Shown here piece after piece: positions 16,893-43,790 of a stretch of DNA of 64,000 nt. The DNA is taken from assembly GCF_001545075.1 (NCBI RefSeq), contig NZ_FCOB02000031.1, positions 1 to 64,000 on the forward strand, read 5' to 3'. Under the pieces are notes generated by a model. It was given only the letters and a program-made list of their open reading frames with translations, had not been told where the DNA came from and made no database searches. This DNA comes from Caballeronia ptereochthonis. GTDB taxonomy: Bacteria; Pseudomonadota; Gammaproteobacteria; Burkholderiales; Burkholderiaceae. Both the position numbers and the translations under genes were made by a program. Every line of letters starts with the position of its first letter. Position 1 is the first letter of the stretch.

Positions 16893-16906
16893 TTGACCCA
16901 GGTCAT
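16893..16906. promoter_or_regulatory. FNR-type box (TTGACCCAGGTCAT)
   Basis: A palindrome with one mismatch to TTGAC-N4-GTCAA, the first of a series in the island. A start site 41 bases downstream would fall near 16941, which suits the small gene fragment that begins at 16985. Confidence 0.5.
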
Positions 16907-16984
16907 GCATGTCTCTCGCGCTTCGGATCAAGCTTTCTGCTGAGCCTGCCCGACGATCCGGGCATGATTCGACGAAGAGCATTC

Positions 16985-17060
16985 ATGCGCATCACTGTTC
17001 ACCTCGACACGTTCGACCGCGTAAGCCCCCGCGCCTACGCGATTCTCGAACTCGACAAGC
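16985..17060 (+). pseudogene. 5' fragment of a paralogue of the gene at 36978
   Basis: The first 25 codons, MRITVHLDTFDRVSPRAYAI and the following LELDK, match the N-terminus of the protein encoded at 36978 (MRITIKLDGFDHAAALAYAV then LWLDK). After that the similarity stops and the frame runs, without a stop, through the next promoter into the universal stress protein gene. GAAGAG lies before the ATG. I read it as a remnant left by a deletion between two stress genes. Confidence 0.5.
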
Positions 17061-17164
17061 CCTCGAGACCCTGGATCCCTGCGTCGGACGCCGTCCAGCA
17101 TTGCATGCTCCGCGGCGCCGTGCGTGATTCATCTCACGACGACGCTTCGACTCCCGGAATCGGC

Positions 17165-17178
17165 GTGATCTGGATCAA
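17165..17178. promoter_or_regulatory. FNR-type box (GTGATCTGGATCAA) before a universal stress protein gene
   Basis: One mismatch to TTGAT-N4-ATCAA. With the usual 41 base spacing the transcript would start close to 17213, at or just before the first candidate ATG of the downstream gene. Confidence 0.5.
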
Positions 17179-17212
17179 GCGTCTCTCACGCGATCCGCGG
17201 CAACATAGACGC

Positions 17213-18289
17213 ATGTCAACGCAAGGAAGCAACGCCGCCGCGCTTGCTCCATGTCCGATGGAATCGATCCAGCCAACTGCCCCGGCGTATCGCCCGCGCA
17301 GAGTACTCATCGCAGTCGATACCTCGCCTGCATCGGAAAACGCGCTCTCTTACGCGTGCAAGCTCGTCTCGGCCGAAACGTCCGTGCGCATCGTCAGCGT
17401 GGTCGAGGACCTGAACGTGCCGCTTCCGCTTCCCGACACGATTCCGCGGTCGCTCGAGGCAGTCCACAAGGGCCTGGTGAGCGATGCCCGGGACATGCTG
17501 CACCACGCCCGGACGAAGTTCGTCGAAGCCGGCGCTAGCGTGGACACCGAGCTGCTCGATCTGTCGGCGCATGGCGGGGACGTCGTGCATGCGATCGCCG
17601 ACACAGCCGGACACTGGAACGCGGAGTTGCTCATCATCGGTGCGCGTCAGCATCATGGATTGTTGCGCTGGGTGGAGCACAGCGTAGCGGAGCCCCTGGC
17701 GAGAAACGTCAGGCTGCCCATTCTGATCGTTCCGGAGTCGTTCGAATCGCCTCTTTCGGACGGGCCGCGACGCATTCTCTTCGCTGTCGACGGCAGCACG
17801 GAAGTGCTTCCGGCCCTGCGCCTCGGCGCGAGGTTCTGCACACCCGAAACGCACGTCCGCGCGATCTACGTCATCGACAAGGCCGCGCGCTTCGGCAACC
17901 CGCTGCCCTTTGCCCTGCTCGAGCAGGCATTCGTCGAAGAAGGCAAGTCGGCCATCGCCATCGCGCGACGGGTGCTCGATCACGTTCCCGGCGAGAAGAC
18001 GACCGAGATCGTGAGCACGAACCAATGCAGGGACGACATCGCCCACACCATCGTGCGCGAGGCGAACGCATGGCGCGCCGACCTGCTCGTCATGGGCACG
18101 CATGGCCGGCGTGGCGCCGCGCGCTGGCTGCTCGGCAGCGTGGCGAGCCGGGTGGCGCGCATCACCCGCACGCCGCTGTTGCTCGTCAATACAGCGTTCG
18201 ACGAGCATGCGCGTCGCGGTGCGTCGGCACGCCCGGAGCAAGCCCGGTCAGGCACGCCACTCCGTCCGCGCGCCGACCACGAGGACTGA
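17213..18289 (+). CDS. tandem-domain universal stress protein
   Basis: Two UspA domains in one 358-residue cytoplasmic protein. Domain 1 begins RRVLIAVDTSPASENAL; domain 2 begins RRILFAVDGSTEVLPAL and ends with the ATP-binding signature MGTHGRRGAARWLLGSVAS. Domain 1 lacks a clean G-x2-G-x9-G motif, so only the second half is likely to bind ATP. The outermost sensible ATG is 17213; 17258 (MESIQPT) is an alternative that leaves a 40-45 base leader downstream of the predicted start site. It is the first intact member of the low-oxygen island. Confidence 0.82.
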   Translation: MSTQGSNAAALAPCPMESIQPTAPAYRPRRVLIAVDTSPASENALSYACKLVSAETSVRIVSVVEDLNVPLPLPDTIPRSLEAVHKGLVSDARDMLHHARTKFVEAGASVDTELLDLSAHGGDVVHAIADTAGHWNAELLIIGARQHHGLLRWVEHSVAEPLARNVRLPILIVPESFESPLSDGPRRILFAVDGSTEVLPALRLGARFCTPETHVRAIYVIDKAARFGNPLPFALLEQAFVEEGKSAIAIARRVLDHVPGEKTTEIVSTNQCRDDIAHTIVREANAWRADLLVMGTHGRRGAARWLLGSVASRVARITRTPLLLVNTAFDEHARRGASARPEQARSGTPLRPRADHED

Positions 18290-18299
18290 TCCAGATCAA
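18286..18299. promoter_or_regulatory. FNR-type box (CTGATCCAGATCAA) before the nitroreductase operon
   Basis: One mismatch to TTGAT-N4-ATCAA. The predicted start near 18334 gives a 39 base leader to the ATG at 18373. The box overlaps the stop codon of the preceding universal stress protein gene. Confidence 0.55.
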
Positions 18300-18372
18300 T
18301 CGCCCGCTCGCGCAGGGGGAAGAATCGGCTCATTCCCGCGCATCGATCGCTCGCGTCGGCGAGCATGCAGCC

Positions 18373-19024
18373 ATGATCAAACCGCTCTTTCGAATCGGCT
18401 CGGTGTTGAACGCGCCGGCGCCGCGTCCGCTGGACGTCACGCCGCCCGCCGTCATCCCGCTGCCACGGCCGCAGCGCTTCGGCGGCATGCCGCTGCTGGA
18501 TGCGCTCGCCGCGCGGCGTACGTCGCGCAACTTCTCGCCCGATCCCATCGATACCGTCGTGCTCGGCGAATTGCTGTGGGCCGCCGACGGCATCAACCGC
18601 GATGCGGACGGCGGACGCACCGCTCCCTCCGCGCTCGGCGGATACGAGATCGATATTTACGTGCTTCTCGCCACCGGGTCGTATCGATACGACGCGATCG
18701 AGCACCGTCTCATGCTCGTGGCGCCGTTCGACTTGCGCGACCACGGGCTACCAGGACTTCCTCGCCCATGCGCCCATCGATCTGGTCTATGTCGCCGATC
18801 TGAACCGCATGCAGGAGGTGCCGGCCCGCCAGCGCGAAAGCTTTGCGAGCGCCAGCGCCGGCGCGATCTTGCAGAACGTCTATCTGTATTGCGCGTCGGC
18901 GGGTCTCGCGGTGGCCGCGCGCGGCTGGATGAACCGCACGGCATTGGCCGTCAATCTGAAGCTGCCGGTCGGATCCAGCACGTTGCTGGCGCAAACCGTC
19001 GGGCACTTCGCCCGCGACCAGTGA
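18373..19024 (+). pseudogene. nitroreductase family protein, frameshifted
   Basis: The first 122 codons read as a nitroreductase N-terminus (LLDALAARRTSRNFSPDPID, then ELLWAADGINR). At about 18739, after PFDLR, the reading moves to the next frame, where TTGYQDFLAHAPIDLVYVAD and the C-terminal VAARGWMNRTALAVNLKLP continue to a stop at 19024. One inserted or two deleted bases explain it. The intact enzyme (about 217 residues) would be an FMN oxidoreductase of the SagB/thiazole-oxidase-like or NADH-nitroreductase type, often found in low-oxygen regulons. As it stands the gene is broken, unless the base call is wrong. Confidence 0.8.
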
Positions 19025-19058: not shown

Positions 19059-19645
19059 ATGAACGACACGATAGAGCACACTGCATTACGCATCACCAAC
19101 GCCTTGCCGTGGTCACGACGGCCATGCTCGGCTTCGTGCAGACGCTCTGCGACGGCGGCCCGGTGCCCGATCCCATCGTGCTACGCGCGATGCTCTACTA
19201 CATACGCGAGTATCCGGAGCAGTTCCATCATCCATTCGAAGACCGCTACTTGTTCGCCGCATTACGCCACCGTACCGACAATCTCGACGACGTGCTCGAC
19301 GAACTGCAATGCGAGCACATCGAAGGCGACGTGCGCCTGCGCAATCTGGAGCATGCGCTCACTCGCTTTGAACTGAAGGGCGAGGCGGTTCTGCCCGGCT
19401 TGCGCACGCTGATGGAGCAATACGTCGCGTTCTGCGCGAACCACAGGCGCGTGGAGGAGACGCTCATTCTGCCCGCCGCCGGGCGCCTCCTTCCGGAGCG
19501 CGACTGGGCGCAGCTCGACGCGGCGCTGGAGAATCGCTCGGACCCGTTCGGCGAAGCGACCTTCGAAGGCGAGAGCCTGGAGAGCCTGTATCGCCTGGTT
19601 GCCCATGCGGTGCCCGCGCTCGGCGAAACGAGGCAGGACACATGA
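19059..19645 (+). pseudogene. hemerythrin-domain protein with damaged N-terminus
   Basis: An ATG at 19059 begins a natural-looking N-terminus (MNDTIEHTALRITNAL), but the frame then drifts into nonsense. From about 19109 a different frame encodes the rest of a hemerythrin HHE domain: AMLGFVQTLCDGG, QFHHPFEDRYLFAAL and NHRRVEETLILPAA. The first His-Asp-Glu motif expected between the two parts is missing, so a small deletion plus frameshift is likely. The remaining HHPFED and HRRVEE motifs could not complete a di-iron site. The C-terminal part overlaps the next gene by ATGA. A shorter GTG-initiated protein of 178 residues remains possible. Confidence 0.65.
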
Positions 19646-20286
19646 GCGCGACGCGCGATCCGGCGAACGCTCCCATGTGCGGCGACTCGGAGGCGCGGCG
19701 ACAATGCCCCGTACGCATGCGCCGGCTTCTCGCGCGGCGGACCTTCGCGAACATCGCTCGAACGATTGCCGAACTCGCATGGATGAGCGCGTACGGAAAC
19801 TGCCTCGCGTCCGGCACGCCCGAACCTGCGCGTCTGATCGATCGGCAACGCTGCATGTTCTGCCATACCGTCGATACGCCGTTTCGGGCGCCCTCATTTC
19901 AGCAGATCTCCGCCCGCTACCGCGGCGTGCCTGGCGCAAGCGACATGCTCGAAAGCAAGCTGCGCAAGGGCGGGGAGGCGCACTGGGGCAAGGTCGCCAT
20001 GCCGTCGGCCGCTGGACGGGGCGGCGGCCCGCTCTCGCGCGAAGACGCGCGCAGGCTCGTCCAGTGGGTGCTGAGCCAACGAGTAACCGACGTGCTCGTC
20101 CCGCGAGGCTCCGATGACCTACAAGACCGTTGCCGTCCAGCTCGATACGAGTGCGCACGCGGTGCGCCGCCTCGATGCCGCGGTGTCGCTCGCGGAGCGC
20201 TTCGATGCGCACCTGCTCGGCCTGTACTCCGACTTCACGCTCGATCCGCGCTTCTACTGTCAGGCGGATCTCTGGCACCGGTATGA
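19642..20286 (+). CDS. small c-type cytochrome, run-on frame, possibly damaged
   Basis: The core is a class I cytochrome c: CMFCHT haem-binding motif near residue 71 and a distal Met in KVAMPSAAGRG. It resembles the intact paralogue at 36569 (CMFCHT, GDMAMPSP). Two features look wrong. No Sec signal peptide precedes the haem site; the first 60 residues are polar and Arg-rich. And after the natural C-terminus LVQWVLSQ the frame continues for 67 codons into the next gene, an overlap of 173 bp. Both suggest small indels. If functional it would be periplasmic electron carriage at low oxygen. Confidence 0.5.
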   Translation: MSATRDPANAPMCGDSEARRQCPVRMRRLLARRTFANIARTIAELAWMSAYGNCLASGTPEPARLIDRQRCMFCHTVDTPFRAPSFQQISARYRGVPGASDMLESKLRKGGEAHWGKVAMPSAAGRGGGPLSREDARRLVQWVLSQRVTDVLVPRGSDDLQDRCRPARYECARGAPPRCRGVARGALRCAPARPVLRLHARSALLLSGGSLAPV

Positions 20287-20953
20287 AATGCCGCTTCAGG
20301 CGCTGTGCCTCGAGCGACGAGAGCGCGTCGAGCGCATGTTTCGCGGCAGGCTCGCCGCGTCGAAGGTGACGCGCGACTGGCTGGCGGATGAAATGACCGC
20401 AGGCTGTTCGCTGGTCGATCGCGCGCGCTGCGCCGGCCTGACTCTCGTCGGACAGCATGACAGCCAGGAGCCGGACGCTCACCTCGCCGACCGCTATCCC
20501 GAGCATACGATCATGGGCGCGGGCGGCCCGGTGCTGGTCTGGCCTCGTGAGCATGCTCCGAGCCCGCTCGACGGAATGGCGGTCATCGCCTGGGACGGAG
20601 GCCGGGAAGCGGCGCGCGCCGGGTTCGACGCCCTGCCGCTACTGCGTCGCGCGAGACGCGTCGACATTGTGTCGATTCGCGCCGAGCGGGACGCGCCCCT
20701 CGCCGACGGACGCGCCGCGCCGGACTTCATGCGCAGCCTGATCAGGCATGCAGTGAGCGTGAATGTCGTCGAGCTCACGGTGAGAGACAAGGCTCATGTC
20801 GAGGCCGCGCTGATGTCCTTCCTGCAGTCCGAACGCGCGCGGCTTTTGATCATGGGCGCGTTTCATCACAGCCGCCTGCGCGAAGCATTCCTCGGCGGTC
20901 TGACACGGGCAGCGCTGCGCGATGCGAATGTTCCCGTGCTGATGTCGAACTGA
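20114..20953 (+). CDS. tandem-domain universal stress protein
   Basis: 279 residues with two UspA folds. It starts MTYKTVAVQLDTSAHAVRRL and belongs with the proteins at 42049 and 42963: each has a second half opening with WDGGREAARAGFDALPLL-like sequence and ending in a G-x3-H-S/A-R-x3-x-LGG motif (here GAFHHSRLREAFLGG) in place of the common GTHGRRG. It is the last gene of the plus-strand nitroreductase/hemerythrin/cytochrome group and appears intact, in contrast to the genes before it. Confidence 0.85.
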   Translation: MTYKTVAVQLDTSAHAVRRLDAAVSLAERFDAHLLGLYSDFTLDPRFYCQADLWHRYEMPLQALCLERRERVERMFRGRLAASKVTRDWLADEMTAGCSLVDRARCAGLTLVGQHDSQEPDAHLADRYPEHTIMGAGGPVLVWPREHAPSPLDGMAVIAWDGGREAARAGFDALPLLRRARRVDIVSIRAERDAPLADGRAAPDFMRSLIRHAVSVNVVELTVRDKAHVEAALMSFLQSERARLLIMGAFHHSRLREAFLGGLTRAALRDANVPVLMSN

Positions 20954-20995: not shown

Positions 20996-21244
20996 TCAGT
21001 TGAATCGGCGCGCTGCCTGGCCCCTGCTGGCGAGCTTGCGCGTCGCGACGAGCAGGAAATGCTCCGCGTCGGCCATGAAGAGATTTTTCATGCTCGCCTC
21101 TCCGATCCGCCTGACCTGCAGCAATTCCCTGAACACGCCTGCATCGACGCGAAAGACCTGTCGTCTCCCGTCGAGACTCCCGGTGAACTCCAGGAAATCC
21201 GGGTCAAGGCGCACCGGTGCGTCGAGCGTCAGTTCCTGAATCAT
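20996..21244 (-). CDS. small DUF1488-like protein
   Basis: 82 residues, starting at the ATG at 21244 (MIQELTLDAPVRLDP) behind a good GGAGGG site. The pattern of a beta strand with a polar loop followed by GRRQVFRVDAGVFREL resembles the DUF1488 family that is clearly present at 36085, but the match is weak. It follows the CBS-domain gene on the minus strand after a 55 bp gap and is probably co-transcribed with it. No signal peptide or membrane helix. Function unknown. Confidence 0.55.
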   Translation of the reverse strand: MIQELTLDAPVRLDPDFLEFTGSLDGRRQVFRVDAGVFRELLQVRRIGEASMKNLFMADAEHFLLVATRKLASRGQAARRFN

Positions 21245-21299: not shown

Positions 21300-22001
21300 T
21301 CAGATGCCCGGCATGATCGGATAGGGAATCGTGTGATCCTCCACGCCCTTCACGCCCGGGATGTTCCACGACGCGATACGCATGGCGTCGAGTTGATCGC
21401 TCGACCACACCGTGCCCCACAGGTGCACGACGCCATCGCGCACGACGATATCGCGGCCCGGAAACGCCCAGCCGCGTCCGGTCAGCTCGCCCATCAGCAT
21501 TGCGCGAATCTCGGCATCGCTTGCCGATGCGCCCGGCACAGGCTCCGGCACGCTGGCAGACGCCAGCGCCTGCACGAGATTCGAACGGCTGACGACGCCG
21601 ACGAGCCGCCCGTCGCGCAGCACCGGCACGCGCTTGATGTGATGGCTTTCGAGAATGGACGCGATGTCCGCGAGCGAGGTGTCCTCCTTCACGCACACGG
21701 GCTCGCGGCTCATGATCTCCCCGACGGTGCGTGCGTGCGACCTGATGTAGTCGCCCGCGCCGCGATCCGTGCCAAGCAGCTCGAGCCACCACGACCGGCG
21801 CGTATGCTTCCTTTCGGTGTCGATCTCGTCCCGACGGAGCAAATCGCCCTCGCTGATCATGCCGATGACGTGCTCGCTTTCATCGACCACGGGTGCGGCG
21901 CTGATACGGTGCTGCGTCAGCAGCAGGGCCAACTCGTGCACCGTCGTTTCAGGCGTCACGGATACGACGGTGGAGGTCATTACATCGCGTGCTTGCATCA
22001 T
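21300..22001 (-). CDS. CBS-pair and BON domain protein
   Basis: 233 residues. A CBS pair occupies residues 1-150: the first repeat contains MTSTVVSVTPETTVHELALL and the second MSREPVCVKEDTSLADIASI. A C-terminal BON domain follows, recognisable by VVRDGVVHLWGTV. CBS pairs bind adenine nucleotides and sense energy charge; BON domains contact membranes or lipids. GGAG lies before the ATG and an FNR-type box is 80 bp upstream, so low-oxygen induction is expected. The same architecture occurs in the lxa locus of Burkholderia cenocepacia. Confidence 0.88.
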   Translation of the reverse strand: MMQARDVMTSTVVSVTPETTVHELALLLTQHRISAAPVVDESEHVIGMISEGDLLRRDEIDTERKHTRRSWWLELLGTDRGAGDYIRSHARTVGEIMSREPVCVKEDTSLADIASILESHHIKRVPVLRDGRLVGVVSRSNLVQALASASVPEPVPGASASDAEIRAMLMGELTGRGWAFPGRDIVVRDGVVHLWGTVWSSDQLDAMRIASWNIPGVKGVEDHTIPYPIMPGI

Positions 22002-22045: not shown

Positions 22046-22087
22046 ACGTTACGACCGGACACTTCGCGCGCCGTTGACGTGCATCAA
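22046..22087 (-). promoter_or_regulatory. FNR-type promoter of the CBS/BON gene
   Basis: The palindrome TTGACGTGCATCAA is at 22074-22087. On the minus strand a -10-like TAACGT (22046-22051) lies about 32 bases from its centre. The predicted start near 22039 gives a 38 base leader. Confidence 0.6.
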
Positions 22088-22108: not shown

Positions 22109-22760
22109 TCAACCGAACTCCAGGTTATCGATCACTGCCGTCACGCCGCGCGTGGCCCACGCGGCGCCTCGTGCGGCATCACGTTCGGCTGCGCTGTCGA
22201 CCTTGCCCCGAGAGCGTGACGGTGCCGTCTTCCACCTTGATCTCGATGTGCTTCGCCTCGCGTTCGGCATGACGCCTGAGCGCGCGGGCAATCTCGTCGC
22301 CGATATCGACGGCGGCGAGATCGCCGCGCACTTGAATCAGGTTCGTCACGCCGGTCACGCCTCGCATATGAGCGATGCCGCTCGCGGCCTTGTGGCTTTG
22401 ATAAGCCCAGTCGACATCGCCGCGCAGTGTGACATGGCCCTTCTCCACCTGCACGTCGACGGCGCCTTCGGGCAGGCCGACCGTCCAGCGCAGCAGCGTA
22501 TCCGCCGCACTCGCGATGTCGGAGTCATAGCGCACGTCGTGGTGAGGCAGGCGAACCTGCATCTCGACGACTACCGCCCTCACCCCGGCCACGCGACACG
22601 CGGCCTTTTCGGCGGCGAGTTTCTCCGAATAGCTCGCGGGATGCCCCGACAGGGTCACGATGCCGTTCGCAACCTGCACTCCGATCCGCGTTGCAAGCAC
22701 TTCCGGCGTCCATTCGAGTTCCTCTTCCACGTCCTGCCTGATCTTCCAGTCCTCTTTCAT
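22109..22760 (-). pseudogene. BON-domain protein with a one-base insertion near the 3' end
   Basis: Three BON repeats are visible, each with the motif V-x2-G-x-V-T-L-x-G (VANGIVTLSGHP, VEKGHVTLRGDV, VEDGTVTLSG). After the third the main frame becomes GQGRQRSRT and stops at 22179, while the frame beginning GKVDSAAERDAARGAAW continues to a natural end at 22109. Removing one G from the run at 22206-22209 joins them into a 216-residue protein. The start is the ATG at 22760 with GGAGG. The gene follows hsp20 with a 56 bp gap and should share its promoter. A homopolymer base-calling error is the main alternative to a real mutation. Confidence 0.7.
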
Positions 22761-22816: not shown

Positions 22817-23248
22817 TCAGTTGATCGGCAGGCGCTTCTGGTCCGCGGGCGTCTTCTTCGGCAGCGTCAGTGTCAGAATGCCGTCCTGATACTGTGCGCT
22901 CGCGCGGGTGTCGTCGATCTCGCTGGCGAGCGAGAACGTGCGACTGACTTCTCCCGTATGGCGTTCGCGGCGAATCACCCGCTCGCCTTCTTTTACTTCC
23001 TTGTGGCGCTCCGTCCTGGCGTGGATGGACACGGTGTTGCGGTCGAGCTTCACGTCGATGTCCTTCTTGTCGACGCCGGGCAATTCGGCCTTCACCTCAT
23101 AGGCCGCATCGGTTTCGCTCACGTCGATCCTGACGTGTCCGAGCGGCGACTCATCGAGCGAGAAACCGCGCAGCGGGCGCAGCAGCCCTTGAAACAGCTC
23201 GGATACGGGCTCGATGGAAAAGGGATCGAAACGAGTCGGATTGCTCAC
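22817..23248 (-). CDS. small heat shock protein Hsp20
   Basis: A 143-residue alpha-crystallin-type chaperone. The domain runs from HVRIDVSETDAAYEVKAELP to the C-terminal strand QDGILTLTLPKK. The N-terminus reads TRFDPFSIEPVSELFQGLL. I choose the GTG at 23248 because AAGGAG sits eight bases before it; the ATG at 23266 has no such site. It holds unfolding proteins in the cytoplasm. It has its own FNR-type promoter, and the BON gene follows it. Hsp20 induction with universal stress proteins at low oxygen is known in Burkholderia lxa. Confidence 0.9.
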   Translation of the reverse strand: MSNPTRFDPFSIEPVSELFQGLLRPLRGFSLDESPLGHVRIDVSETDAAYEVKAELPGVDKKDIDVKLDRNTVSIHARTERHKEVKEGERVIRRERHTGEVSRTFSLASEIDDTRASAQYQDGILTLTLPKKTPADQKRLPIN

Positions 23249-23349: not shown

Positions 23350-23390
23350 ACTTTAAAAGCCTTCGCCCTGGGGCGATTGACCTGCGTCAA
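23350..23390 (-). promoter_or_regulatory. FNR-type promoter of hsp20
   Basis: TTGACCTGCGTCAA at 23377-23390. On the minus strand the -10 element TAAAGT (23350-23355) has its centre exactly 31 bases from the palindrome centre, the spacing of a class II FNR/CRP promoter (box at -41.5). The leader to the GTG start is about 94 bases. Confidence 0.75.
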
Positions 23391-23415: not shown

Positions 23416-24393
23416 TCATGCAGCCCGGTTCAATTCGATCGGGCGACGGCGCGACAGCAGCAACGGCACCTCCGTAAGCTCGGTCACGCGGCCGGACACG
23501 GTCCCGAGCATCCAGCGCGCGACACCGCGCTGCCCGTGCGTGCCCATGAGGATCGCATCGGCGCTCCAGCGCGCCGCTTCGCGCACAATCGCATGCGCGA
23601 CGTCGTCGCCGGCTTCCTCGGTGCGTACGAGCGCGGTATCGAACGTGAAGTCCTGCGCGCCCCACGATTGCGCGAAGGCGGTGCGCGCCCGGGTCAATGC
23701 CGCCTGGCCTTCTTCGAAGAATGCATCCTGAAGCGAGCCATGCGAGACGGCTTCACTGCCGCGCGCCGAACGGTCCAGCACATAGATCACCCTTACGTGG
23801 GCGCCAGGACTCGCGATCCTGATCCCGGCTCGCAAGGATTCGAGCGAAGCGAGACTGCCGTCCATCGCGCAAAGCAATCGGCGAGGACGCGTGGTCAGAT
23901 CGTATGCGCGCCGCTGCGGCAGCACCAGCATCGAGCAACGCGCGAGGCCCGGCGCCTCTCGCGATGCACGCTCGGTCCATCGCAGCACGGACAAGTGCTG
24001 CCGCGCGCCGAGCACGACGAGGTCGGCGCCCCAGGCTTGGGCGGCTCGCGTAAGCGCATGGGCCGCGTCCCCGCCATCCTCGAACAGGTCGGCCATCTGC
24101 GCATCCGCGTCGATGCCCGCGTTCTTCAGACAGACCTGCGCCCGGCTCACGCTTGCCTCGACGCCGCGCCGCAACTGCGCATGGGCGGCGCTCAAGTTGA
24201 AGAAACCGAGCGGCGCGTGCGGGATCATCGCGCGTGCGTTCTCGAGCAATCCGACGATGCGCACGCTCGACCCGGCATCGGCGAGCGCGCTGACGAGCGC
24301 CGCGGCGTTCGCCCGGTCTTCCGTCGAATCGATGCATAGCAGAATGCGTCCGAAGGCCGCGCGCTGCTTGCCTTGGGCTGGCGTGTCGCTCAT
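23416..24393 (-). CDS. tandem-domain universal stress protein
   Basis: 325 residues with two UspA domains. Domain 1 begins GRILLCIDSTEDRANAAAL and ends GARQHLSVLRWTERAS; domain 2 begins RRLLCAMDGSLASLESL and carries the nucleotide-binding motif MGTHGQRGVARWMLGTVS. The layout matches the protein at 17213, with only the second half able to bind ATP. The ATG at 24393 follows a strong GGAGG. The gene lies downstream of the acetoacetyl-CoA reductase remnant and probably shared its promoter at 24947-24987. Confidence 0.87.
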   Translation of the reverse strand: MSDTPAQGKQRAAFGRILLCIDSTEDRANAAALVSALADAGSSVRIVGLLENARAMIPHAPLGFFNLSAAHAQLRRGVEASVSRAQVCLKNAGIDADAQMADLFEDGGDAAHALTRAAQAWGADLVVLGARQHLSVLRWTERASREAPGLARCSMLVLPQRRAYDLTTRPRRLLCAMDGSLASLESLRAGIRIASPGAHVRVIYVLDRSARGSEAVSHGSLQDAFFEEGQAALTRARTAFAQSWGAQDFTFDTALVRTEEAGDDVAHAIVREAARWSADAILMGTHGQRGVARWMLGTVSGRVTELTEVPLLLSRRRPIELNRAA

Positions 24394-26407: not shown

Positions 26408-26430
26408 GAGGTCGGGCGCGCTGTGACCTC
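26408..26430. terminator. short hairpin between convergent kinase and ATPase genes
   Basis: GAGGTC and GACCTC form a 6 bp stem with an 11 nt GC-rich loop in the 43 bp gap between the convergent genes, overlapping the mgtA-type stop. No T-tract, so the call is weak. Confidence 0.3.
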
Positions 26431-29163: not shown

Positions 29164-29177
29164 TTGACGCACGTCAA
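29164..29177 (-). promoter_or_regulatory. FNR-type box (TTGACGCACGTCAA) before the Mg ATPase gene
   Basis: A perfect TTGAC-N4-GTCAA palindrome, 69-82 bases before the chosen ATG. No good -10 element is visible at the expected place (about 29139), so the promoter may be weak. Confidence 0.6.
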
Positions 29178-30208: not shown

Positions 30209-30213
30209 ACGTC

Positions 30214-36471: not shown

Positions 36472-36540
36472 AGTTTTCGCGTGTAAAGCAATACGCGCGT
36501 TGATGCAGATCAACAGCCCCGCGAACCGGACCCGCATGAT
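36472..36540. promoter_or_regulatory. FNR-type promoter between DUF1488 and cytochrome c genes
   Basis: TTGATGCAGATCAA at 36500-36513. On the plus strand CATGAT (36535-36540) is centred exactly 31 bases from its centre and would drive the cytochrome gene. On the minus strand AAAACT (36472-36477) lies 32 bases away and could drive the DUF1488 gene, so one box may serve two divergent promoters. Confidence 0.65.
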
Positions 36541-36568: not shown

Positions 36569-36955
36569 ATGCTCACTCGCCTTCCCCACGGCTGCCGCAC
36601 ACGATCGGAAGTTGTCCAGCTTCGCGCCCGTCACGTCGCGCTGGTGGCGCTTCTCGGCGCCCTCCTGTTCTGCGCCTCGCGCGCGCTCGCCCAATCCGAG
36701 CCGGGTGCGCTCATCGATCAGCAGCATTGCATGTTCTGCCACACCAACGATGCGCCTTTCCTCGCGCCGTCGTTCCAGCAGATCGCCAACCGTTATCGCG
36801 ATGTCCCGCATGCCCAGGTCATGCTGGAGCACAAGCTGCGCGAAGGCGGGCGGCCACATTGGGGCGACATGGCGATGCCATCGCCCGCGGAACGAGGCGG
36901 CCCTCTCTCGCCTGAAGATGCCCATACGCTCGTCGAATGGGTGTTGCGTCACTGA
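36569..36955 (+). CDS. small periplasmic c-type cytochrome
   Basis: 128 residues. A signal peptide with core HVALVALLGALLFCASRALA and cleavage after ALAQ precedes a class I cytochrome c: haem motif CMFCHT and distal Met in GDMAMPSPAERG; it ends naturally with LVEWVLRH. It carries electrons in the periplasm, probably to a terminal oxidase or reductase at low oxygen. A damaged paralogue lies at 19642. The start ATG at 36569 is the one that fits the predicted transcript; the ribosome site is weak. Confidence 0.82.
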   Translation: MLTRLPHGCRTRSEVVQLRARHVALVALLGALLFCASRALAQSEPGALIDQQHCMFCHTNDAPFLAPSFQQIANRYRDVPHAQVMLEHKLREGGRPHWGDMAMPSPAERGGPLSPEDAHTLVEWVLRH

Positions 36956-36977: not shown

Positions 36978-37454
36978 ATGCGCATCACCATCAAGCTCGA
37001 TGGTTTCGATCACGCCGCCGCATTGGCGTATGCGGTGCTATGGCTGGACAAGGAACGCGGCCGCTGGTCGCGCGAAGCCCACGATGGCTTCGAACTTCCG
37101 CCGTGGGGCACGTGGCGGTCCGCGCCCGACGGAACGCTGCTGCTCGACCCCGACACGCTACAGGCTGTGCTCATGCTTCACGGCCTGAGGCTGAACGCAC
37201 CGGCCGGCATCGCGGGCGCGACCGGCACGGATGACCCATCGGCATGCGCGCCATCGGAATCGCAGAAAGGCCGCGCCAACTACTTTGGATGCGGCGCGGA
37301 CGGCGAGTCTCGCGCGCCGGATGCGGGACACTGGCATGTCCAGTGCATCGATCGCGAAAGCACCGTAGCCGAGCACGAGGTTTTCTCCGACGAGCCGGAT
37401 GCCGTCAGCGGGCAAAGCGCCCACGCCCACGATGCCGGCTCGCTCGCAATGTGA
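36978..37454 (+). CDS. hypothetical protein following the cytochrome c gene
   Basis: 158 residues, not recognised. It begins MRITIKLDGFDHAAALAYAV and has a clear ordered part to about residue 80 (WGTWRSAPDGTLLLDPDTLQ), then a polar, Gly/Ser/Asp-rich tail. I choose the ATG at 36978 because AAGGAG is six bases upstream; the ATG at 36972 touches the Shine-Dalgarno. It lies 22 bp after the cytochrome gene on the same strand. A 25-codon fragment of a paralogue is found at 16985. No signal peptide. Confidence 0.6.
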   Translation: MRITIKLDGFDHAAALAYAVLWLDKERGRWSREAHDGFELPPWGTWRSAPDGTLLLDPDTLQAVLMLHGLRLNAPAGIAGATGTDDPSACAPSESQKGRANYFGCGADGESRAPDAGHWHVQCIDRESTVAEHEVFSDEPDAVSGQSAHAHDAGSLAM

Positions 37455-37471: not shown

Positions 37472-37780
37472 TCACGCCGAAGCAATGCACCTTTGCCGAA
37501 GAAGGCGCACGGCATTCTCGAACGCCTGATGGATCGCCACTGCCACATCCGGATTCGAGCTTCTCTCGACAGGAATGAGATTGAACTCACGCGTCACCAG
37601 ATCGAGCCGGGCATCGTAGAGCCGGGCCCCTGACTGGTCGCGATACGCCTCGATCGTCAGATGGCAGTTGACGATGTCCTTCGCGACGCGTTCGAGCCGC
37701 ACGAGCTCGACGCCGGCTTCGCGCTCGACGTCATTGGAGCCGGCAAAGCCCTGACAGGCAATCTGCATTCCGAGGCCCAT
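37472..37780 (-). CDS. HPF/RaiA-like ribosome-associated protein
   Basis: 102 residues. The middle, LERVAKDIVNCHLTIEAYRD, then YDARLDLVTREFNLIPVE and the terminal VAVAIHQAFENAVRLLRQ, follow the beta-alpha-beta pattern of the sigma-54 modulation/ribosome hibernation family. These proteins sit in the 30S decoding centre and silence ribosomes during energy stress. The start at 37780 follows GGGGAGAG. The protein is a little shorter than usual after the final helix. A nearby FNR-type promoter suggests that ribosome hibernation is tied to low oxygen here. The assignment rests on pattern only. Confidence 0.65.
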   Translation of the reverse strand: MGLGMQIACQGFAGSNDVEREAGVELVRLERVAKDIVNCHLTIEAYRDQSGARLYDARLDLVTREFNLIPVERSSNPDVAVAIHQAFENAVRLLRQRCIASA

Positions 37781-37861: not shown

Positions 37862-37902
37862 ATACTCCGCCATCGGCACGTCACTGGATTGACTCACATC
37901 AA
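37862..37902 (-). promoter_or_regulatory. FNR-type promoter of the HPF/RaiA-like gene
   Basis: TTGACTCACATCAA at 37889-37902, with GAGTAT (minus strand, 37862-37867) centred exactly 31 bases away. The leader is about 74 bases. Confidence 0.65.
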
Positions 37903-37913: not shown

Positions 37914-38384
37914 TCACGCCGCATCGTCCGTCGGACCTCGTGCCGGGGCCCCGACGAAGCCACGAAAGTTCATCTCGATGCTGCGTATCCGACTGGCGCA
38001 TTGCGCATATCGCCAGCCCGGACCGCCGTCCATTCCATACATGCCCCGGCACATGCCCTTGAGGCTTATCCGCGCGCGCTCGCCGCCGTTTCCCGTTGGC
38101 GTGCGTGTGGCCCACAGATAGACGACGCCGGCTTCGAGCGGACGGCCGGTTTCGATTTCAGCCGCATCCTCACGGCGTATGCGCGTTGCGGAGTAGCGCG
38201 CGACGTACTGCCGGGTGCGCTCCCAGAGCCGCGAGCATTCCTCAGGACCAAAGCAATCGATCGAGGCGAATTCTCGCGCCTGCACAAGCGCCGGCTCGGT
38301 CTGTCTGAATTCATTCCAGCGAGCGCCGGATGAGCATGCCGCGAGTCCGAGCAGCGATACTGCGCACAGCGCCGGCTTCCTCAT
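37914..38384 (-). CDS. small lipoprotein of unknown function
   Basis: 156 residues. The N-terminus MRKPALCAVSLLGLAACSSG is a lipoprotein signal with lipobox LAAC (Cys17), and the next residues Ser-Ser favour the outer membrane. The mature part contains four further Cys (CFGPEEC, MCRGMYG and YAQC), perhaps two disulfides, and a WATRTPTGNGGER turn. I do not recognise the family. GGAGCG precedes the ATG. It ends 12 bp before the FNR-type box of the HPF-like gene. Confidence 0.75.
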   Translation of the reverse strand: MRKPALCAVSLLGLAACSSGARWNEFRQTEPALVQAREFASIDCFGPEECSRLWERTRQYVARYSATRIRREDAAEIETGRPLEAGVVYLWATRTPTGNGGERARISLKGMCRGMYGMDGGPGWRYAQCASRIRSIEMNFRGFVGAPARGPTDDAA

Positions 38385-38609: not shown

Positions 38610-39677
38610 GACACGTGCTGCACGAATCAGAAGGGCGACGTCGTCCTGCCCGGTGATGCGACGGTCATCGCGCCTGCGCACGCTGTGACATGGACGGCTG
38701 CCCCGAACCGGATATCTACGTGCGCCAGCACGACCGCTATGCCCGTTTCGTGCGCGAAGCGCAGGAACGTTCGCCGATGCGCACGGCCATCGTTCACCCG
38801 TGCTCGCCGGAATCGCTCACCGCCGCCATCGAGGCGCGCGATGAAGGCCTCATCGACCCTTTGCTGGTCGGACCGATCTGCAGGATTCATGCTGCCGCGG
38901 AAACAGCGCATCTCGACTTGTCCGGGATTTCGATCGAAGCGGTCGAACATAGCCACGCGGCGGCGGCCCGCGCCGCGCAGCTGGGTGACGAGCGAGGTGG
39001 CCGCGCTGATGAAAGGCAGCCAGCACACCGATGAACCGCTGTGGGCTGTGGGCTGCGGGCCGTGGTCGCAAGAGGCTCCGGCCTGAGAACGGACCGCCGC
39101 ATGAGCCACGTCTATGGGATGGACGTGCCCACGTATGCGAAGCCGCTCATCGTCACCGATGCGGCCGTGAACATCGCGCCCACGCTCGAGCACAAGCGCG
39201 ACATCTGCCAGAATGCCGTCGACCTGCTGCATCTGCTCGGCAACGAACGTCCGAGCGTCGCGGTGCTGGCCGCCGTCGAGACCGTCAACCCGAGGATGTC
39301 CGCCACGATCGACGCCGCGGCGCTCACGGCGATGGCCGCGCGCGGGCAGATCAGCGGCGCGACGGTCGACGCGCCGCTCGCCTTCGATAACGCTGTCAGC
39401 GCCGCGGCCGCGTCGGCGAAGGGCATCGTTTCTCCCGCCGCCGGGGACGCCGACGTCCTTCTGATGCCGGACCTCGAAGCAGGCAATAGGCTGGCCAAAC
39501 AGATGATGGACTTCGGAGCCGCGGACGCCGCGGGCCTCGTGCTCGGTGCGCGCATTCCGATCGTCATCACCAGTCGCGGACAGATTGCGGGTGCGGCTCG
39601 CGTCGGTCGCGCTCGCCAAGCTGGTCGCCGAGCGCACATCGCACAAAGCCGGCTCACGGAACGCCGACGAGTCATGA
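38610..39677 (+). pseudogene. MaoC-phosphate acetyl/butyryltransferase fusion, multiply frameshifted and 5' deleted
   Basis: Pieces of one protein lie in successive frames: the end of a MaoC hydratase domain (TNQKGDVVLPGDATVIAPAH), then EPDIYVRQHDRYARFVREAQ and AAIEARDEGLIDPLLVGP, then VAALMKGSQHTDE, then SHVYGMDVPTYAKPLIVTDA through VETVNPRMSATIDAAALTAM to VLGARIPIVITSR, and last RLASVALAKLVAERTSHKAG to the stop. Changes of frame fall near 38700, 38985, 39080 and 39588. About 125 N-terminal residues are missing. The intact enzyme would interconvert acyl-CoA and acyl phosphate for acetate fermentation. No acetate kinase gene is in the window. Confidence 0.85.
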
Positions 39678-39707
39678 TGCCCCGGCGGTGCCGCAACCCC
39701 GTCTCGT

Positions 39708-40148
39708 TCAAGCCTGAGGAAGCGAGCGGATCAGAAGCACAGGACATGTCGAATGCCGCAGGAACGCTTCTGCAACGCTGCCGAGCACCAGCCGCCGAAA
39801 TCCGGCCCGGCCGTGCGTACCCATCACCACGAGATCGGCCGGCAATTGCGCCGCGCAGCGCTGGAGGCAACGCGCGACCGAATCGGTGGTGCTTTGCGTT
39901 TCCAGCAATTGTGTCTCGCATTCCGTGCCGGCCGCGCGCAAACGCGTCTGTGCATCGTCGAGCATGCGGCGCGCATCGCCGAAAACTTCCGAGCGATAGC
40001 GCACCGGGTACGATGCGAGCGCCGCCGCGTCCGCAACGAAGACCATGCGCACCCGCGCCCCCGAACACTTCGCGATATGACCCGCTTCGTCCAGTGCGCG
40101 CTGCGACGATTCGCTCCCATCGAGCGCGACCATGATATTCCGGTACAT
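39708..40148 (-). CDS. single-domain universal stress protein
   Basis: 146 residues, one UspA domain from MYRNIMVALDGSESSQRALD to the motif MGTHGRAGFRRLVLGSVAEA and the end strand CPVLLIR. ATP binding is expected. AAGGAG lies before the ATG. It follows the flavodoxin gene (27 bp) and the alcohol dehydrogenase gene on the minus strand, so it is probably the third gene of the FNR-controlled operon that begins at 41862-41902. Confidence 0.92.
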   Translation of the reverse strand: MYRNIMVALDGSESSQRALDEAGHIAKCSGARVRMVFVADAAALASYPVRYRSEVFGDARRMLDDAQTRLRAAGTECETQLLETQSTTDSVARCLQRCAAQLPADLVVMGTHGRAGFRRLVLGSVAEAFLRHSTCPVLLIRSLPQA

Positions 40149-40175: not shown

Positions 40176-40682
40176 TCAGGCTACCCATTCGAGGCTATCG
40201 ATACGCGCGAGCCTGTGCTCGACCCGATCCACGAAGATGTCGATGGCGCGCCGCTCGTCGTCCGCGCGAGGCGTGCCTGTGATCGCGCAACGCGCAACGG
40301 GTTGCTTGCCGGCGAGCTTCGTCATGTCCGCGAAGGCCGTGGCGGCGCCTCGCGCGTGCTGCGTGCAGAAGAAGGCCACATGCGGCAGCCTGCGCCGGTT
40401 GGCCGCGAGCCATGCGCGCACCGGCGCGCTGACCGTGCCGGCCCATACAGGCGTGCCGATGACGACGACGTCGTAACGCGCCACATCATGCTCCGGCGGA
40501 TCGATACGCACGCTTCGTCCGCAGATGGCATCGGCAAGCGAGCGCACATATCCCTGCATGCCCGAGCGATCCGCCGGCTCGGTGATCGCCTCGAAATCGG
40601 CGGACAGACGCCCGGCGAGCGTCGCGCCCAGGGCGCGCGTCCGGCCGCTGCGTGAAAAGCAAACGACGAGCACTTTCGACAC
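40176..40682 (-). CDS. flavodoxin-like protein
   Basis: 168 residues. The FMN phosphate loop CFSRSGRTRALG is at the N-terminus, and GTPVWAGTVSAPVRAWL forms the second flavin-contact loop. The start is a GTG at 40682 (VSKVLVVCFSR) with GGAG seven bases upstream; the longer frame to 40808 encodes unlikely Arg-rich sequence. It lies between the alcohol dehydrogenase and a universal stress protein gene. It may be an electron carrier or a WrbA/NQO-like quinone reductase subunit. Confidence 0.82.
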   Translation of the reverse strand: MSKVLVVCFSRSGRTRALGATLAGRLSADFEAITEPADRSGMQGYVRSLADAICGRSVRIDPPEHDVARYDVVVIGTPVWAGTVSAPVRAWLAANRRRLPHVAFFCTQHARGAATAFADMTKLAGKQPVARCAITGTPRADDERRAIDIFVDRVEHRLARIDSLEWVA

Positions 40683-40776: not shown

Positions 40777-41817
40777 TCATGAGACCTCGATGAGGACCTT
40801 GAGCGCATTGGTGTCGGCCGCGTTGCTGAAGGTCGCGTACGCTTCGAGCACGTGGTCCAACGTGAAGTGGTGCGTGATGAGCCGCTGCGGATCCAGGCGG
40901 CCCGAGCGCACGGTCTTGAGCAGCATGGGCGTGCTGACCGTATCGACGAGCCGCGTGGTGATCGTGATGTTGCGGTCCCACAGCGTTTCGAGATGCAGAT
41001 CGGCCTTCACGCCATGCACGCCGACGTTCGCGATGGTCCCGCCTGCCGCGATGATCGACTCGCACAGTTCGAAGGTCGAAGGCACGCCGACCGCCTCGAC
41101 CGCGCAATCCACGCCCGCGCCATCCGTCAGGCGCAGGACCTCGGCAACAGGTTCCGTTTGCACAATGTCGACGCATGCGCTCGCGCCGAAGGTGCGCGCC
41201 ACTTCGAGACGATGCTTGTCGCGATCGATCATGATGATCTGCGCCGGCGCATAGAACTGCGCGGTGAGCAAGGCCGCAAGCCCGATCGGCCCCGCGCCGA
41301 CTATCGCGACCGTGCTGCCGGGCTGCACACGGCCGTTGAGCACGCCGCATTCGAAGCCCGTCGGAAGAATGTCCGACAGCATGACGAGCGCCTCTTCCGC
41401 AACGCCGGGCGGAATCGGGTAAAGGCTCGTGTCGGCATGCGGAATGCGGACATACTCGGCCTGCGTGCCGTCGATCCTGTTGCCGAGTATCCAGCCGCCC
41501 GTCGCGCAATGCGAGTACATGCCGCGCCGGCATGCGTCACATTTGCCGCAAGAGGAGATGCACGAGATCAGCACGCGATCGCCCGGCTTGAACGCGGCAA
41601 CGGCCACGCCTACCTGCTCCACGATGCCGACGCCCTCGTGCCCGAGCACGCGGCCGGGCTCGCAGCTCGGCACGTCGCCCTTGAGGATGTGCAGATCGGT
41701 GCCGCAGATCGTCGTTCGCGTCACGCGCACGACTGCGTCCGTGGCGGCCACGAGCGTCGGAACGGGGCGCTCGTCGAGCGACTTCTGTCCCGGGCCGTGG
41801 TAGACGAGTGCTTTCAT
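40777..41817 (-). CDS. zinc-dependent alcohol dehydrogenase (MDR family)
   Basis: 346 residues. Catalytic zinc ligands lie in TICGTDLHILKGD and GHEGVG, the structural zinc site in SCGKCDACRRGMYSHC, and the NAD motif in GAGPIGLAALL. GGWILG and LSDILPTGFECGV are typical of the AdhT/alpha group close to threonine/secondary-alcohol dehydrogenases. The start at 41817 follows AGGGAG. It likely reoxidises NADH by reducing an aldehyde or ketone at low oxygen, and heads an operon with flavodoxin and a universal stress protein. Unlike the nitroreductase, PhaB and Pta genes it is intact. Confidence 0.9.
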   Translation of the reverse strand: MKALVYHGPGQKSLDERPVPTLVAATDAVVRVTRTTICGTDLHILKGDVPSCEPGRVLGHEGVGIVEQVGVAVAAFKPGDRVLISCISSCGKCDACRRGMYSHCATGGWILGNRIDGTQAEYVRIPHADTSLYPIPPGVAEEALVMLSDILPTGFECGVLNGRVQPGSTVAIVGAGPIGLAALLTAQFYAPAQIIMIDRDKHRLEVARTFGASACVDIVQTEPVAEVLRLTDGAGVDCAVEAVGVPSTFELCESIIAAGGTIANVGVHGVKADLHLETLWDRNITITTRLVDTVSTPMLLKTVRSGRLDPQRLITHHFTLDHVLEAYATFSNAADTNALKVLIEVS

Positions 41818-41861
41818 CTTCGAACTCCCTTGTGTGCGCATGACGTCGAGTCAACGCGGCC

Positions 41862-41902
41862 ACTGTATGCCCGGGAAGGCTTTGGCGATTGACCTGAGTC
41901 AA
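41862..41902 (-). promoter_or_regulatory. FNR-type promoter of the alcohol dehydrogenase operon
   Basis: TTGACCTGAGTCAA at 41889-41902; on the minus strand TACAGT (41862-41867) is centred exactly 31 bases from its centre. The leader is about 37 bases. Confidence 0.75.
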
Positions 41903-41936
41903 TCGAAACGGATGGCTCTGACGAAGCGCCGTGCCG

Positions 41937-41978
41937 TTGACCTGAGTCAACCGGATCCGTATGGCGCATCCCTACACT
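41937..41978 (+). promoter_or_regulatory. FNR-type promoter of the double universal stress operon
   Basis: The same 14-mer, TTGACCTGAGTCAA, at 41937-41950, with TACACT (41973-41978) centred 32 bases away. The predicted start near 41985 gives a 64 base leader. The box is 48 bp from that of the divergent alcohol dehydrogenase operon. Confidence 0.7.
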
Positions 41979-42048
41979 CGTTGCCTGTCAGGACCCGTCG
42001 GACGTTCGAGTTCACATACCCGCAGGTTTCGATTCAAGGAGTGACGTG

Positions 42049-42888
42049 ATGAGTTACAAGACTGTTCTCGTGCATCTCGACACCAGCGTGCGCGCGCATC
42101 CGAGGCTGGAAACCACATTGCAACTGGCAAAGCGCTTCGACGCGCATGTCATCGGAGTGTTTGCGATCTTCGAACCCGACCCGCGCACCTTCGAGGTCAT
42201 GGCGGGCACCGCCGGGTATTACGAGCAGCACGCGGCCATGCGGCGCGAACAGCGCGGTGCCATCGAGCGGCTCTTTCATGCGGAGCTGAAGCGCGCGGGC
42301 GTGTCGGGCGACTGGATCGAAACGCAAGAGCGGGCGAGCGTCGCCGTGCCGCGTTTCGCGCGCTGCGCGGATCTGGTAGTCGTGGGCCAGGACGATCCGA
42401 CCGATCCCGAGGCTTACGTCGGCGATCATTTTCCCGAGACGCTCGTCCTGTCCTCGGGGCGTCCGGTCTTGCTCATCCCGTACACGGGCTTCTTCGCCGC
42501 GCTCGGCAAGCATCCGATGATCGCCTGGGACGGCAGCCGCGAAGCGGCCCGCGCCGTTCACGACGCCCTGCCCTTGCTCAAGGCGGCCGAGCGCGTCTCG
42601 ATCGTCAGCATCGATACGGCCCGAGGCGAAGCATACGGCGACCGCATCCCGGGCGCGGACATCGCGGCATGCATCGCGCGGCACGGCGTGAAAGCCGAGG
42701 TCTCGTCGAGCGTCGGCGCGGCGGACGCTTCGGCGGGCGAGCTGCTGCTTTCCCGCGCGGCCGACCTGAATGCGGACCTCGTGGTGATGGGCGGTTATGG
42801 ACACGCGCGCTGGCAGGAACTCGTGCTCGGCGGCGCCACGCGAACCTTCCTCGCGTCGATGACGGTTCCCGTGCTCATGTCTCACTGA
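42049..42888 (+). CDS. tandem-domain universal stress protein
   Basis: 279 residues, two UspA folds. It starts MSYKTVLVHLDTSVRAHPRL, close to the protein at 20114. The second half begins MIAWDGSREAARAVHDALPL and ends MGGYGHARWQELVLGGATR, a G-x2-G-H-x-R variant of the nucleotide motif. AAGGAG precedes the ATG at 42049. It is the first gene of a plus-strand pair with the next universal stress protein and has an FNR-type promoter. Confidence 0.9.
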   Translation: MSYKTVLVHLDTSVRAHPRLETTLQLAKRFDAHVIGVFAIFEPDPRTFEVMAGTAGYYEQHAAMRREQRGAIERLFHAELKRAGVSGDWIETQERASVAVPRFARCADLVVVGQDDPTDPEAYVGDHFPETLVLSSGRPVLLIPYTGFFAALGKHPMIAWDGSREAARAVHDALPLLKAAERVSIVSIDTARGEAYGDRIPGADIAACIARHGVKAEVSSSVGAADASAGELLLSRAADLNADLVVMGGYGHARWQELVLGGATRTFLASMTVPVLMSH

Positions 42889-42962
42889 GCCGCCGATCAC
42901 GCGCGGAGCGCATCCGAAGCGGATTCTCAACGAGCGCGACCGCGCAACAAGGAGCCGATGTC

Positions 42963-43790
42963 ATGAACTGGAAGTCGATTCTCGTCCATCTGGACAACAG
43001 CCGGCGCTGTGACGCACGAACACGGCTCGCGTTCGACATCGCAAGTCGTTTCGATGCTCACGTCATCGGGCTCTATCTGGTCTGCCAGGATCTGCTTCAT
43101 CACGTGTTCGATCCGTCGGACAGGCTGCAACACGAGGCCTACGCGGAGCAACGTCGGGCGGCGCTCGAGAAGGCACGCGACACGTTCGAGCACGCGGCAA
43201 GGCTCGCGGGCGTCAGCGCGGAGTGGCGTGCGCCGGGCAGCCCTGTCTTCGATGCGGCCACGCTGCACGGCCGTCATGCGGATGTGATCGTGCTCGGACA
43301 GGACGACCCCGACGACCCCGCTGCGTTCGTCGCGCTGCACTTCGTCGAGGACGTCGTGATCAGTGTCGGCCGGCCGGTGCTGATCGTGCCACGGGCCGGG
43401 GACATCCCTACGTTCGGCGAAAACGTCCTCATCGGGTGGGACGACAGCCGCGAAGCCGCGCGTGCCGTTTTCGATGCGCTGCCCATTCTTCGGCGTGCGC
43501 GTTTCATCGAGGTCGCGACCGTCGAACGGCATCGATACGAAGAAGCGCCCGCGGGCATCGAGATTTCCGCTTATCTGGATCGGCAGGGCGTGCGCGCCAG
43601 CTTTTCCTCGACGCCGCGCATTCGCGGCGAAAACACCGGTATGACGTTGGTGGACAAAGCGAGCAGCGCGCACGCGGACTTGCTCGTCGCGGGCGCCTAT
43701 GCGCATTCGCGCGGACTGGAACGCGTGCTCGGCGGTGTGACGCGCGCACTTCTCGAGATGTCGCCGCTTCCGGTTCTGCTATCGCATTGA
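42963..43790 (+). CDS. tandem-domain universal stress protein
   Basis: 275 residues, in the same subfamily as its neighbour: MNWKSILVHLDNSRRCDART at the start, GWDDSREAARAVFDALPIL at the beginning of the second half and AGAYAHSRGLERVLGGVTRA at the end. AAGGAG lies about ten bases before the ATG. A 74 bp gap separates it from the previous gene, and it probably shares the transcript. It is the right-hand end of the low-oxygen island. Confidence 0.9.
   Translation: MNWKSILVHLDNSRRCDARTRLAFDIASRFDAHVIGLYLVCQDLLHHVFDPSDRLQHEAYAEQRRAALEKARDTFEHAARLAGVSAEWRAPGSPVFDAATLHGRHADVIVLGQDDPDDPAAFVALHFVEDVVISVGRPVLIVPRAGDIPTFGENVLIGWDDSREAARAVFDALPILRRARFIEVATVERHRYEEAPAGIEISAYLDRQGVRASFSSTPRIRGENTGMTLVDKASSAHADLLVAGAYAHSRGLERVLGGVTRALLEMSPLPVLLSH

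Follow-up and report, generated by a model that had tools for sequence, protein, structure and literature searches.

Does a compact block of stress and redox genes in Caballeronia ptereochthonis form a low-oxygen response that carries its own regulators, as does the low-oxygen-activated (lxa) locus of Burkholderia cenocepacia? The 27-kb block, hereafter the island (positions 16893-43790), lies in a 64,000-nucleotide stretch of contig NZ_FCOB02000031.1, the window, and makes up 0.35% of a genome of 7.71 Mb in 117 contigs. The original prediction, which likened the block to lxa, listed within it seven universal stress proteins (USPs), Hsp20, CBS/BON proteins, an MgtA-type ATPase, cytochromes c, a zinc alcohol dehydrogenase (ZnADH), kinases and regulators, and comparison of the window's open reading frames (ORFs) with Pfam, NCBIfam and PDB profiles recovered all of them, some weakly called. 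We propose that the island is very probably a Caballeronia version of lxa, that is, a self-regulated low-oxygen persistence island that has been rearranged and partly eroded.

Kinship with lxa and clustering of FNR boxes

We located lxa in B. cenocepacia NCTC13227 by the BCAM0292 primer (PMC9733578), which matched a single contig among the genomes collected, and took 60 kb around it. The lxa make-up was borne out, as 18 of the 32 island families compared in a matrix with related loci have an lxa counterpart of at least 44% identity (coverage 48-100%); for 4 of the 32, proteins of Caballeronia sp. NK8 served as references because the window copies are interrupted. Absence of synteny had been named as grounds for refutation, and the comparison did not refute the relationship: gene order is shared, in blocks only, and a block of kinase HK2, response regulator (RR) and FNR is common to the island and lxa. 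The USP6-USP4-USP7 order of lxa is also present in NK8 and G018 (G numbers denote genomes of the collection). All seven USP genes carry Pfam PF00582, at least six having been taken to mark an lxa-type locus, and the island stretch holds 11 of the 19 Usp-domain matches of the genome, 1 of these 11 below the family cut-off.

Twelve lxa ORFs matched by island proteins (BCAM0276, 0277, 0278, 0280, 0284, 0290, 0291, 0292, 0294, 0296, 0299 and 0319) have a start, usually one of several possible, that fits the published mass to two decimals (PMC6127331 section 7 and PMC9733578 Table 1). Hsp20 matches B. cenocepacia strongly at one place, lxa, and weakly at two others, and both island cytochromes c may share a single lxa counterpart. 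USP2, USP3, HK1 and MgtA match lxa at the level of paralogues, and 10 of the 32 families are missing from this lxa, among them a 79-residue protein with a weak match of 33%.

The most interesting part is the share of the genome's perfect FNR boxes that lies in one block with an FNR gene. With a perfect box defined as the palindrome TTGAYN4RTCAA and the reversed pattern as control, 24 boxes were counted genome-wide, 11 of them in the island, as compared to 9 reversed patterns genome-wide. The expectation for the island is 0.08 boxes (binomial P=2e-21, regional composition differences being ignored here and in the reversed control), and the remaining 37 kb of the window contain no perfect box. 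In B. cenocepacia, 15 of 36 perfect boxes lie within a 48-kb stretch of lxa. The FNR-box principle at lxa is not new, an FNR-box-like motif having been associated with many low-oxygen-induced genes of B. cenocepacia (PMC4505428; published expression and regulation data are cited here and below from excerpts of the papers), and no statement on the genome-wide share of FNR boxes in such an island was found in the literature searched, Sass et al. 2013 lying outside that search.

Twelve island-bearing Caballeronia relatives, recognized by an HK2 orthologue (partial in G012), hold 304 perfect boxes (13-45 each) as compared to 128 control patterns. Seven island-less genomes, hand-picked among those with neither an HK2 orthologue nor a USP6 match and several of them small, hold 54 boxes (1-13 each) as compared to 52, which is background. 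At least one USP6 copy is preceded by a box in all 19 sets of loci with a full-length USP6, and the nearest box centre lies 72-139 bp from the USP6 start, within 72-103 bp in 18 of the 19, start codons being extrapolated from alignments. Nine relatives likewise have two boxes 46-48 bp apart beside USP6, the divergent gene being ZnADH or flavodoxin. A similar pair, one box imperfect and one perfect, is seen in the window at 32145/32192.

Five small proteins, named by position, had been placed under the same type of promoter. A perfect box indeed precedes 29759, 31810 and the presumed transcription units of 36978 and 20996, and for 37914 the only site, at 38450, carries 2 mismatches. Many of the loci set side by side contain conserved ORFs for 31810, 36978 and 37914; counterparts of 29759 and of 20996 come from three Caballeronia loci each.

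Regulators and a proposed circuit

The island FNR matches the solved FNR at 1.5e-57, with C40, C43, C49 and C142 aligned to its cysteines, which we take to be the cluster ligands, and ETVSR aligned to ETISR of the reading helix; on NF008365 (Fnr) it scores 246 bits, the cut-off being 228. The four cysteines and the concentration of FNR boxes lend independent support to the assignment to hypoxia, and the island is most likely under FNR control, as judged from sequence. The three B. cenocepacia matches other than the lxa FNR stand at 62, 57 and 30% identity, and the lxa FNR itself, BCAM0287, is induced 17-fold at low oxygen (PMC4505428). Two FNR paralogues (51% and 55%) are encoded elsewhere in the Caballeronia genome.

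Among solved structures, HK2 is matched best by haem-PAS domains of FixL (4.5e-13), and H154 and R175 fall in the columns of the haem His and the distal Arg, the roles that these residues presumably have in FixL. Among rows with a complete PAS, the window included and HK1 excluded, the first column holds His in 29 of 29 and the second Arg in 28 of 29, a motif that does not prove haem. As the kinase half of HK2 is of the HisKA_3 type and HK2 reaches 64.5 bits on the FixL model NF041777, far below the cut-off of 850, we treat a FixL-like mode of action as a lead.

Based on our data we propose that upon a fall in oxygen FNR (35185-35973) would gain a [4Fe-4S] cluster and dimerise, possibly helped or primed by the two paralogues encoded elsewhere, and would bind the boxes located ~60-135 bp before most presumed transcription units to activate them. 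HK2, with its FixL-type PAS, and its NarL/FixJ-type partner probably add a second redox or oxygen signal. As a box lies ahead of USP4, which is itself 5' of the co-oriented genes HK2-RR-FNR, a positive loop is probable. The products would then establish a protected, slow cell state favouring survival, through the USPs, Hsp20, the BON/CBS proteins, parking of ribosomes by the HPF-like protein, uptake of Mg2+ and the small cytochromes c, and the reductases or dehydrogenases would dispose of electrons.

We suggest, tentatively and as a thought rather less likely than its contrary, that the island is a portable regulon, in which an oxygen sensor of its own (FNR and a FixL-like PAS domain carried by a kinase of the NarX/DesK type), a large share of the host's strong FNR sites and their targets travel together across replicons and genera of the Burkholderiaceae. 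If so, much of the strong-box FNR response could be gained or lost in one step. It is predicted that a large part of the perfect-FNR-box genes of this genome is this single island.

Weighing of the evidence and alternative readings

Several observations weigh against a low-oxygen island of the lxa type. HK2 and RR resemble lxa no more closely than they do a second B. cenocepacia locus. The boxes of the 12 island-bearing relatives are less concentrated, 87 of the 304 being in the island stretches taken from them and a good part thus lying elsewhere, and the share of the island ranges from 4 of 36 (G043, at a contig end) to 13 of 29 (G008). Only an imperfect box, or none, is found near USP1, nitroreductase, HHE, cytochrome c 1, USP2, Pta and 37914. 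Nitroreductase, phbB, MaoC-Pta and APH-AAA are interrupted as compared to single ORFs of relatives. Finally, B. thailandensis showed lower transcript levels of six USP genes, four of which are neighbours, in anoxic stationary phase (PMC3966863).

The last observation, for which the authors of that paper point to growth rate, would suit an island that serves growth arrest or stationary-phase stress in general, in which the USPs, Hsp20, the HPF-like protein, BON and MgtA answer to slow growth or envelope stress and oxygen is one cue among them. Proteins such as USPs, Hsp20 and HPF are typical of growth arrest. Induction of lxa at 6% oxygen has nevertheless been published (PMC4505428, PMC9104464). 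Together with the 11 of 24 genome-wide perfect boxes in the island and their recurring positions, this makes general growth arrest an unlikely explanation.

Less probable still is a nitrosative or nitrate-responsive island, in which HK2-RR would act like NarX-NarL and the boxes would be used by a DNR/NO-type regulator: NarX/NarQ models match the HisKA_3 kinase half of HK2, RR is of the NarL type and FNR-type boxes are common to DNR proteins, yet FixL gives the solved structure nearest to the PAS of HK2, all four FNR cysteines are present in the local regulator and no nitrate or nitrite reductase is present among the window ORFs scanned.

We give as little credence to a decaying remnant, acquired by transfer, stripped of metabolic genes and inactive in this strain. 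Decay is suggested by the four interrupted genes, by a lipocalin that is shortened here as it is in relatives, and by cytochrome c 1, which is possibly degenerate in that its ORF has a long tail and lacks a clear signal sequence, whereas the seven USPs, HK1, HK2, RR, FNR, Hsp20 and MgtA have open frames and 11 perfect boxes are kept. The interruptions could, moreover, be assembly errors instead of real lesions. They consist of a frame change in nitroreductase, a single ORF in NK8 and B. cenocepacia, and in APH-AAA; in phbB the first ~93 residues were not found and a stop comes ~20 codons early; in MaoC-Pta the MaoC domain was not found and there is an in-frame stop. Nitroreductase and the MaoC-Pta remnant on the + strand are additions to the earlier gene list. 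The island members lost differ among genomes, HK2 and its neighbours being most constant and the cargo variable, with the exception of a G004 stretch that has HK2 without RR or FNR and a G041 stretch with RR and FNR whose HK2 match is only at paralogue level.

Gene content, spread and known systems

The features that make up the proposed low-oxygen island are listed in Table 1.

Table 1. Features of the island. Percentages are identities; BCAM numbers denote lxa counterparts; the last column gives the distance of FNR boxes upstream, in bp.
Feature	Position	Strand	Basis and relatives	FNR box
USP1, two Usp domains	17258-18289	+	Pfam; BCAM0319 (48%)	86.5 (1 mismatch)
Nitroreductase, interrupted, frame change near 18742	18268-19024	+	Pfam N-part and C-part in two frames	
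Hemerythrin (HHE) protein	19109-19645	+	Pfam; 73-80% in 4 Caballeronia loci	
Cytochrome c-like ORF (cytochrome c 1), CMFCH	19642-20286	+	Pfam below cut-off; BCAM0284 (62%)	
USP2	20114-20953	+	Pfam; 69-71% in G008, G054, G004	
Small protein, function not assigned	20996-21244	-	64-71% in 3 Caballeronia loci; 3' of CBS-BON, same strand	
CBS pair + BON protein	21300-22001	-	Pfam	79.5
Three-BON-domain protein (BON3)	22179-22760	-	Pfam; BCAM0280 (62%)	
Hsp20	22817-23248	-	Pfam; BCAM0278 (64-65%)	135.5
USP3, two Usp domains	23416-24393	-	Pfam; 73-76% in NK8, G008, G018	
phbB (acetoacetyl-CoA reductase) remnant	24442-25068	-	BCAM0296	
HK1, PAS-HisKA_3 kinase	25162-26385	+	Pfam; 65-80% in five other Caballeronia loci	
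MgtA-type P-type ATPase	26429-29095	-	start ATG 29095 assumed	75.5 (before 29095)
Lipocalin-like C-terminal part	29212-29631	-	Pfam; equally short match in NK8, G008, G018	
Small protein, N-terminal hydrophobic stretch	29759-30208	+	56-69% in three Caballeronia loci	62.5
APH-like + AAA_33 protein, interrupted, frame change near 30988	30205-31813	+	alignment to relatives	
79-residue protein	31810-32049	-	15-row alignment of related loci	102.5 (1 mismatch); 149.5 (perfect)
USP4	32289-32786	+	Pfam; BCAM0292 (50%)	90.5
HK2, PAS-HisKA_3 kinase, FixL-type PAS	32992-34350	+	Pfam, PDB; lxa kinase (54-58%)	
NarL/FixJ-type RR	34347-35000	+	Pfam; 77% to lxa, 81% to second B. cenocepacia locus	
FNR, C40, C43, C49, C142	35185-35973	+	Pfam, NCBIfam; lxa FNR closest B. 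cenocepacia match (66%)	
DUF1488 protein	36085-36387	-	start 36387 assumed; Pfam 1.7e-18; BCAM0277 (57%)	119.5
Cytochrome c, CMFCH, signal-like N-terminus	36614-36955	+	start GTG 36614 assumed	107.5
DUF3564 protein	36978-37454	+	Pfam 7.8e-32	
HPF/RaiA-like protein	37472-37780	-	profile matches	115.5
Putative lipoprotein	37914-38384	-	counterpart 5' of BCAM0276 in lxa (44%)	
MaoC-Pta remnant	38690-39721	+	BCAM0298, by position and family	
USP5	39708-40148	-	Pfam; BCAM0276 (46%)	
Flavodoxin-like protein	40176-40682	-	below Pfam cut-offs; 60-74% in Caballeronia loci	
ZnADH	40777-41817	-	Pfam; BCAM0299 (77%)	78.5
USP6	42049-42888	+	Pfam; BCAM0294 (57%)	105.5; 153.5
USP7	42963-43790	+	Pfam; BCAM0291 (53%)	
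FNR box	22074-22087		perfect palindrome	
FNR box	23377-23390		perfect palindrome	
FNR box	24974-24987		perfect palindrome	
FNR box	29164-29177		perfect palindrome	
FNR box	29637-29650		perfect palindrome	
FNR box	29690-29703		perfect palindrome	
FNR box	32192-32205		perfect palindrome	
FNR box	36500-36513		perfect palindrome	
FNR box	37889-37902		perfect palindrome	
FNR box pair, 48 bp apart	41889-41902 and 41937-41950		perfect palindromes	

MgtA scores above the cut-offs of TIGR01524 and NF011702 (NCBIfam). One cytochrome c copy is below and one just above the Pfam cut-off, with CMFCH in both. For the HPF-like protein the longer ORF had no Pfam match and the trimmed ORF matched PF02482 at E=0.0044, below cut-off; of 17 aligned members, 11 match PF02482 at E<=1, the best of them at 2.4e-5, and the HPF-like profile matched a solved ribosome hibernation factor at E=7.5e-7. 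At 16893-17260 lies a DUF3564-like start (MRITVHLDTFDR), preceded at 84 bp by an FNR box with 1 mismatch, and the frame of this start is open into USP1; the start was not seen in the USP1 relatives compared. Two gene calls were rejected. Positions 30018 and 30998 are not two genes, as NK8 and G018 have a single ORF of 535 residues, and '30998' is the 3' half of the frame-disrupted APH+AAA_33 gene; the conservation of 38627-39646(-) reflects that of MaoC-Pta, encoded on the opposite strand.

An Rfam gathering search of the window returned tRNA-Sec only, a sigma-70 promoter scan of 16-31 kb found none as compared to 1.9 expected, and a search of viral contigs gave a single weak response-regulator match. 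At 52403-63932 the tRNA-Sec (-) stands beside ORFs 55290-57209 and 57206-58651 and a formate dehydrogenase-like block extending to 63932; by sequence and position, the ORFs at 55290-63932 may be selB, selA and Sec-type fdh genes.

Of 57 other genomes of the genus, 11 encode an almost full-length HK2 orthologue of at least 65% identity and G012 a partial one, and USP6-type proteins (E 1e-40 or better) are present in 127 of 299 genomes of the family, representing 10 of 25 genera. The genes flanking the island differ between species. In G034 (NK8, seven contigs), G012 and G016, the three relatives that have the island as well as close copies of the two flanking genes, the right-flank LysR and left-flank oxidoreductase genes are on contigs other than that of the island, a check of the empty site by two flanking genes in which separate draft contigs do not prove separate places. 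An apparent second island with USP6, HK1 or FNR is seen at G018:C30, G004:C48 and G052:C4, with several further FNR boxes in G004.

On plasmid pNK82 of NK8 the gene order is largely the same and there are 14 perfect FNR boxes; there, unlike here, phbB, nitroreductase, Pta and APH-AAA are open, whereas MgtA is partly missing, flavodoxin is split, USP copies are added and hemerythrin, CBS-BON and 20996 have no counterpart. The second B. cenocepacia FNR/USP locus (G316:C4:30604-50906), probably BCAM1483-BCAM1500 by inferred numbering, shares HK2, RR (81%), FNR, DUF1488, the HPF-like and 79-residue proteins and two USPs, but these are spread over 20 kb, with two perfect FNR boxes in 40 kb and no matches to Hsp20, BON3, phbB or ZnADH. 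The HK2-matched locus of B. cenocepacia CMCC(B)23006 was tried as lxa and rejected, as its 50 kb contain two USPs and no Hsp20, BON or phbB matches; it is the second FNR/USP locus, and its replicon, the only one searched, has five Usp-domain matches.

In FixL-FixJ-FixK of rhizobia and Burkholderia dolosa, too, a PAS kinase, a FixJ/NarL-type regulator and an FNR/FixK-type regulator stand in a row. In B. dolosa FixLJ acts on fixK, the homologue of BCAM0049, and not on the lxa FNR (PMC5234846). HK2 departs from this system in its HisKA_3-type kinase and its score on the FixL model. The DosR dormancy regulon of mycobacteria has an unrelated regulator and scattered genes. It is nevertheless likewise a low-oxygen set rich in USPs, with alpha-crystallin (comparison in PMC6127331). 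In favour of the proposed circuit, cytochrome c and two uspA genes of H. seropedicae are activated jointly by Fnr1 and Fnr3 (PMC5934665). We rejected a connection with the bug-symbiont region described in PMC9088363, as a term search of that paper gave no match for oxygen or universal stress.

As compared to lxa (BCAM0275a-BCAM0323), with which the island shares USPs, Hsp20, BON, DUF1488, cytochrome c, phbB, Pta, ZnADH, FNR, RR, kinase and the concentration of boxes, there are ~32 families in 27 kb here instead of ~50 genes, and the order is rearranged. CBS-BON, hemerythrin, flavodoxin, DUF3564, lipocalin, HPF-like, APH-AAA, 20996 and 29759 have no counterpart in this lxa, and neither PFK nor metallo-beta-lactamase is among the window ORFs scanned. 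The lxa locus is known from work on B. cenocepacia, most of it concerned with the cystic fibrosis lung. A rearranged lxa with its own FNR sites in a minority of the genus Caballeronia suggests an environmental module for survival at low oxygen and not a lung trait.

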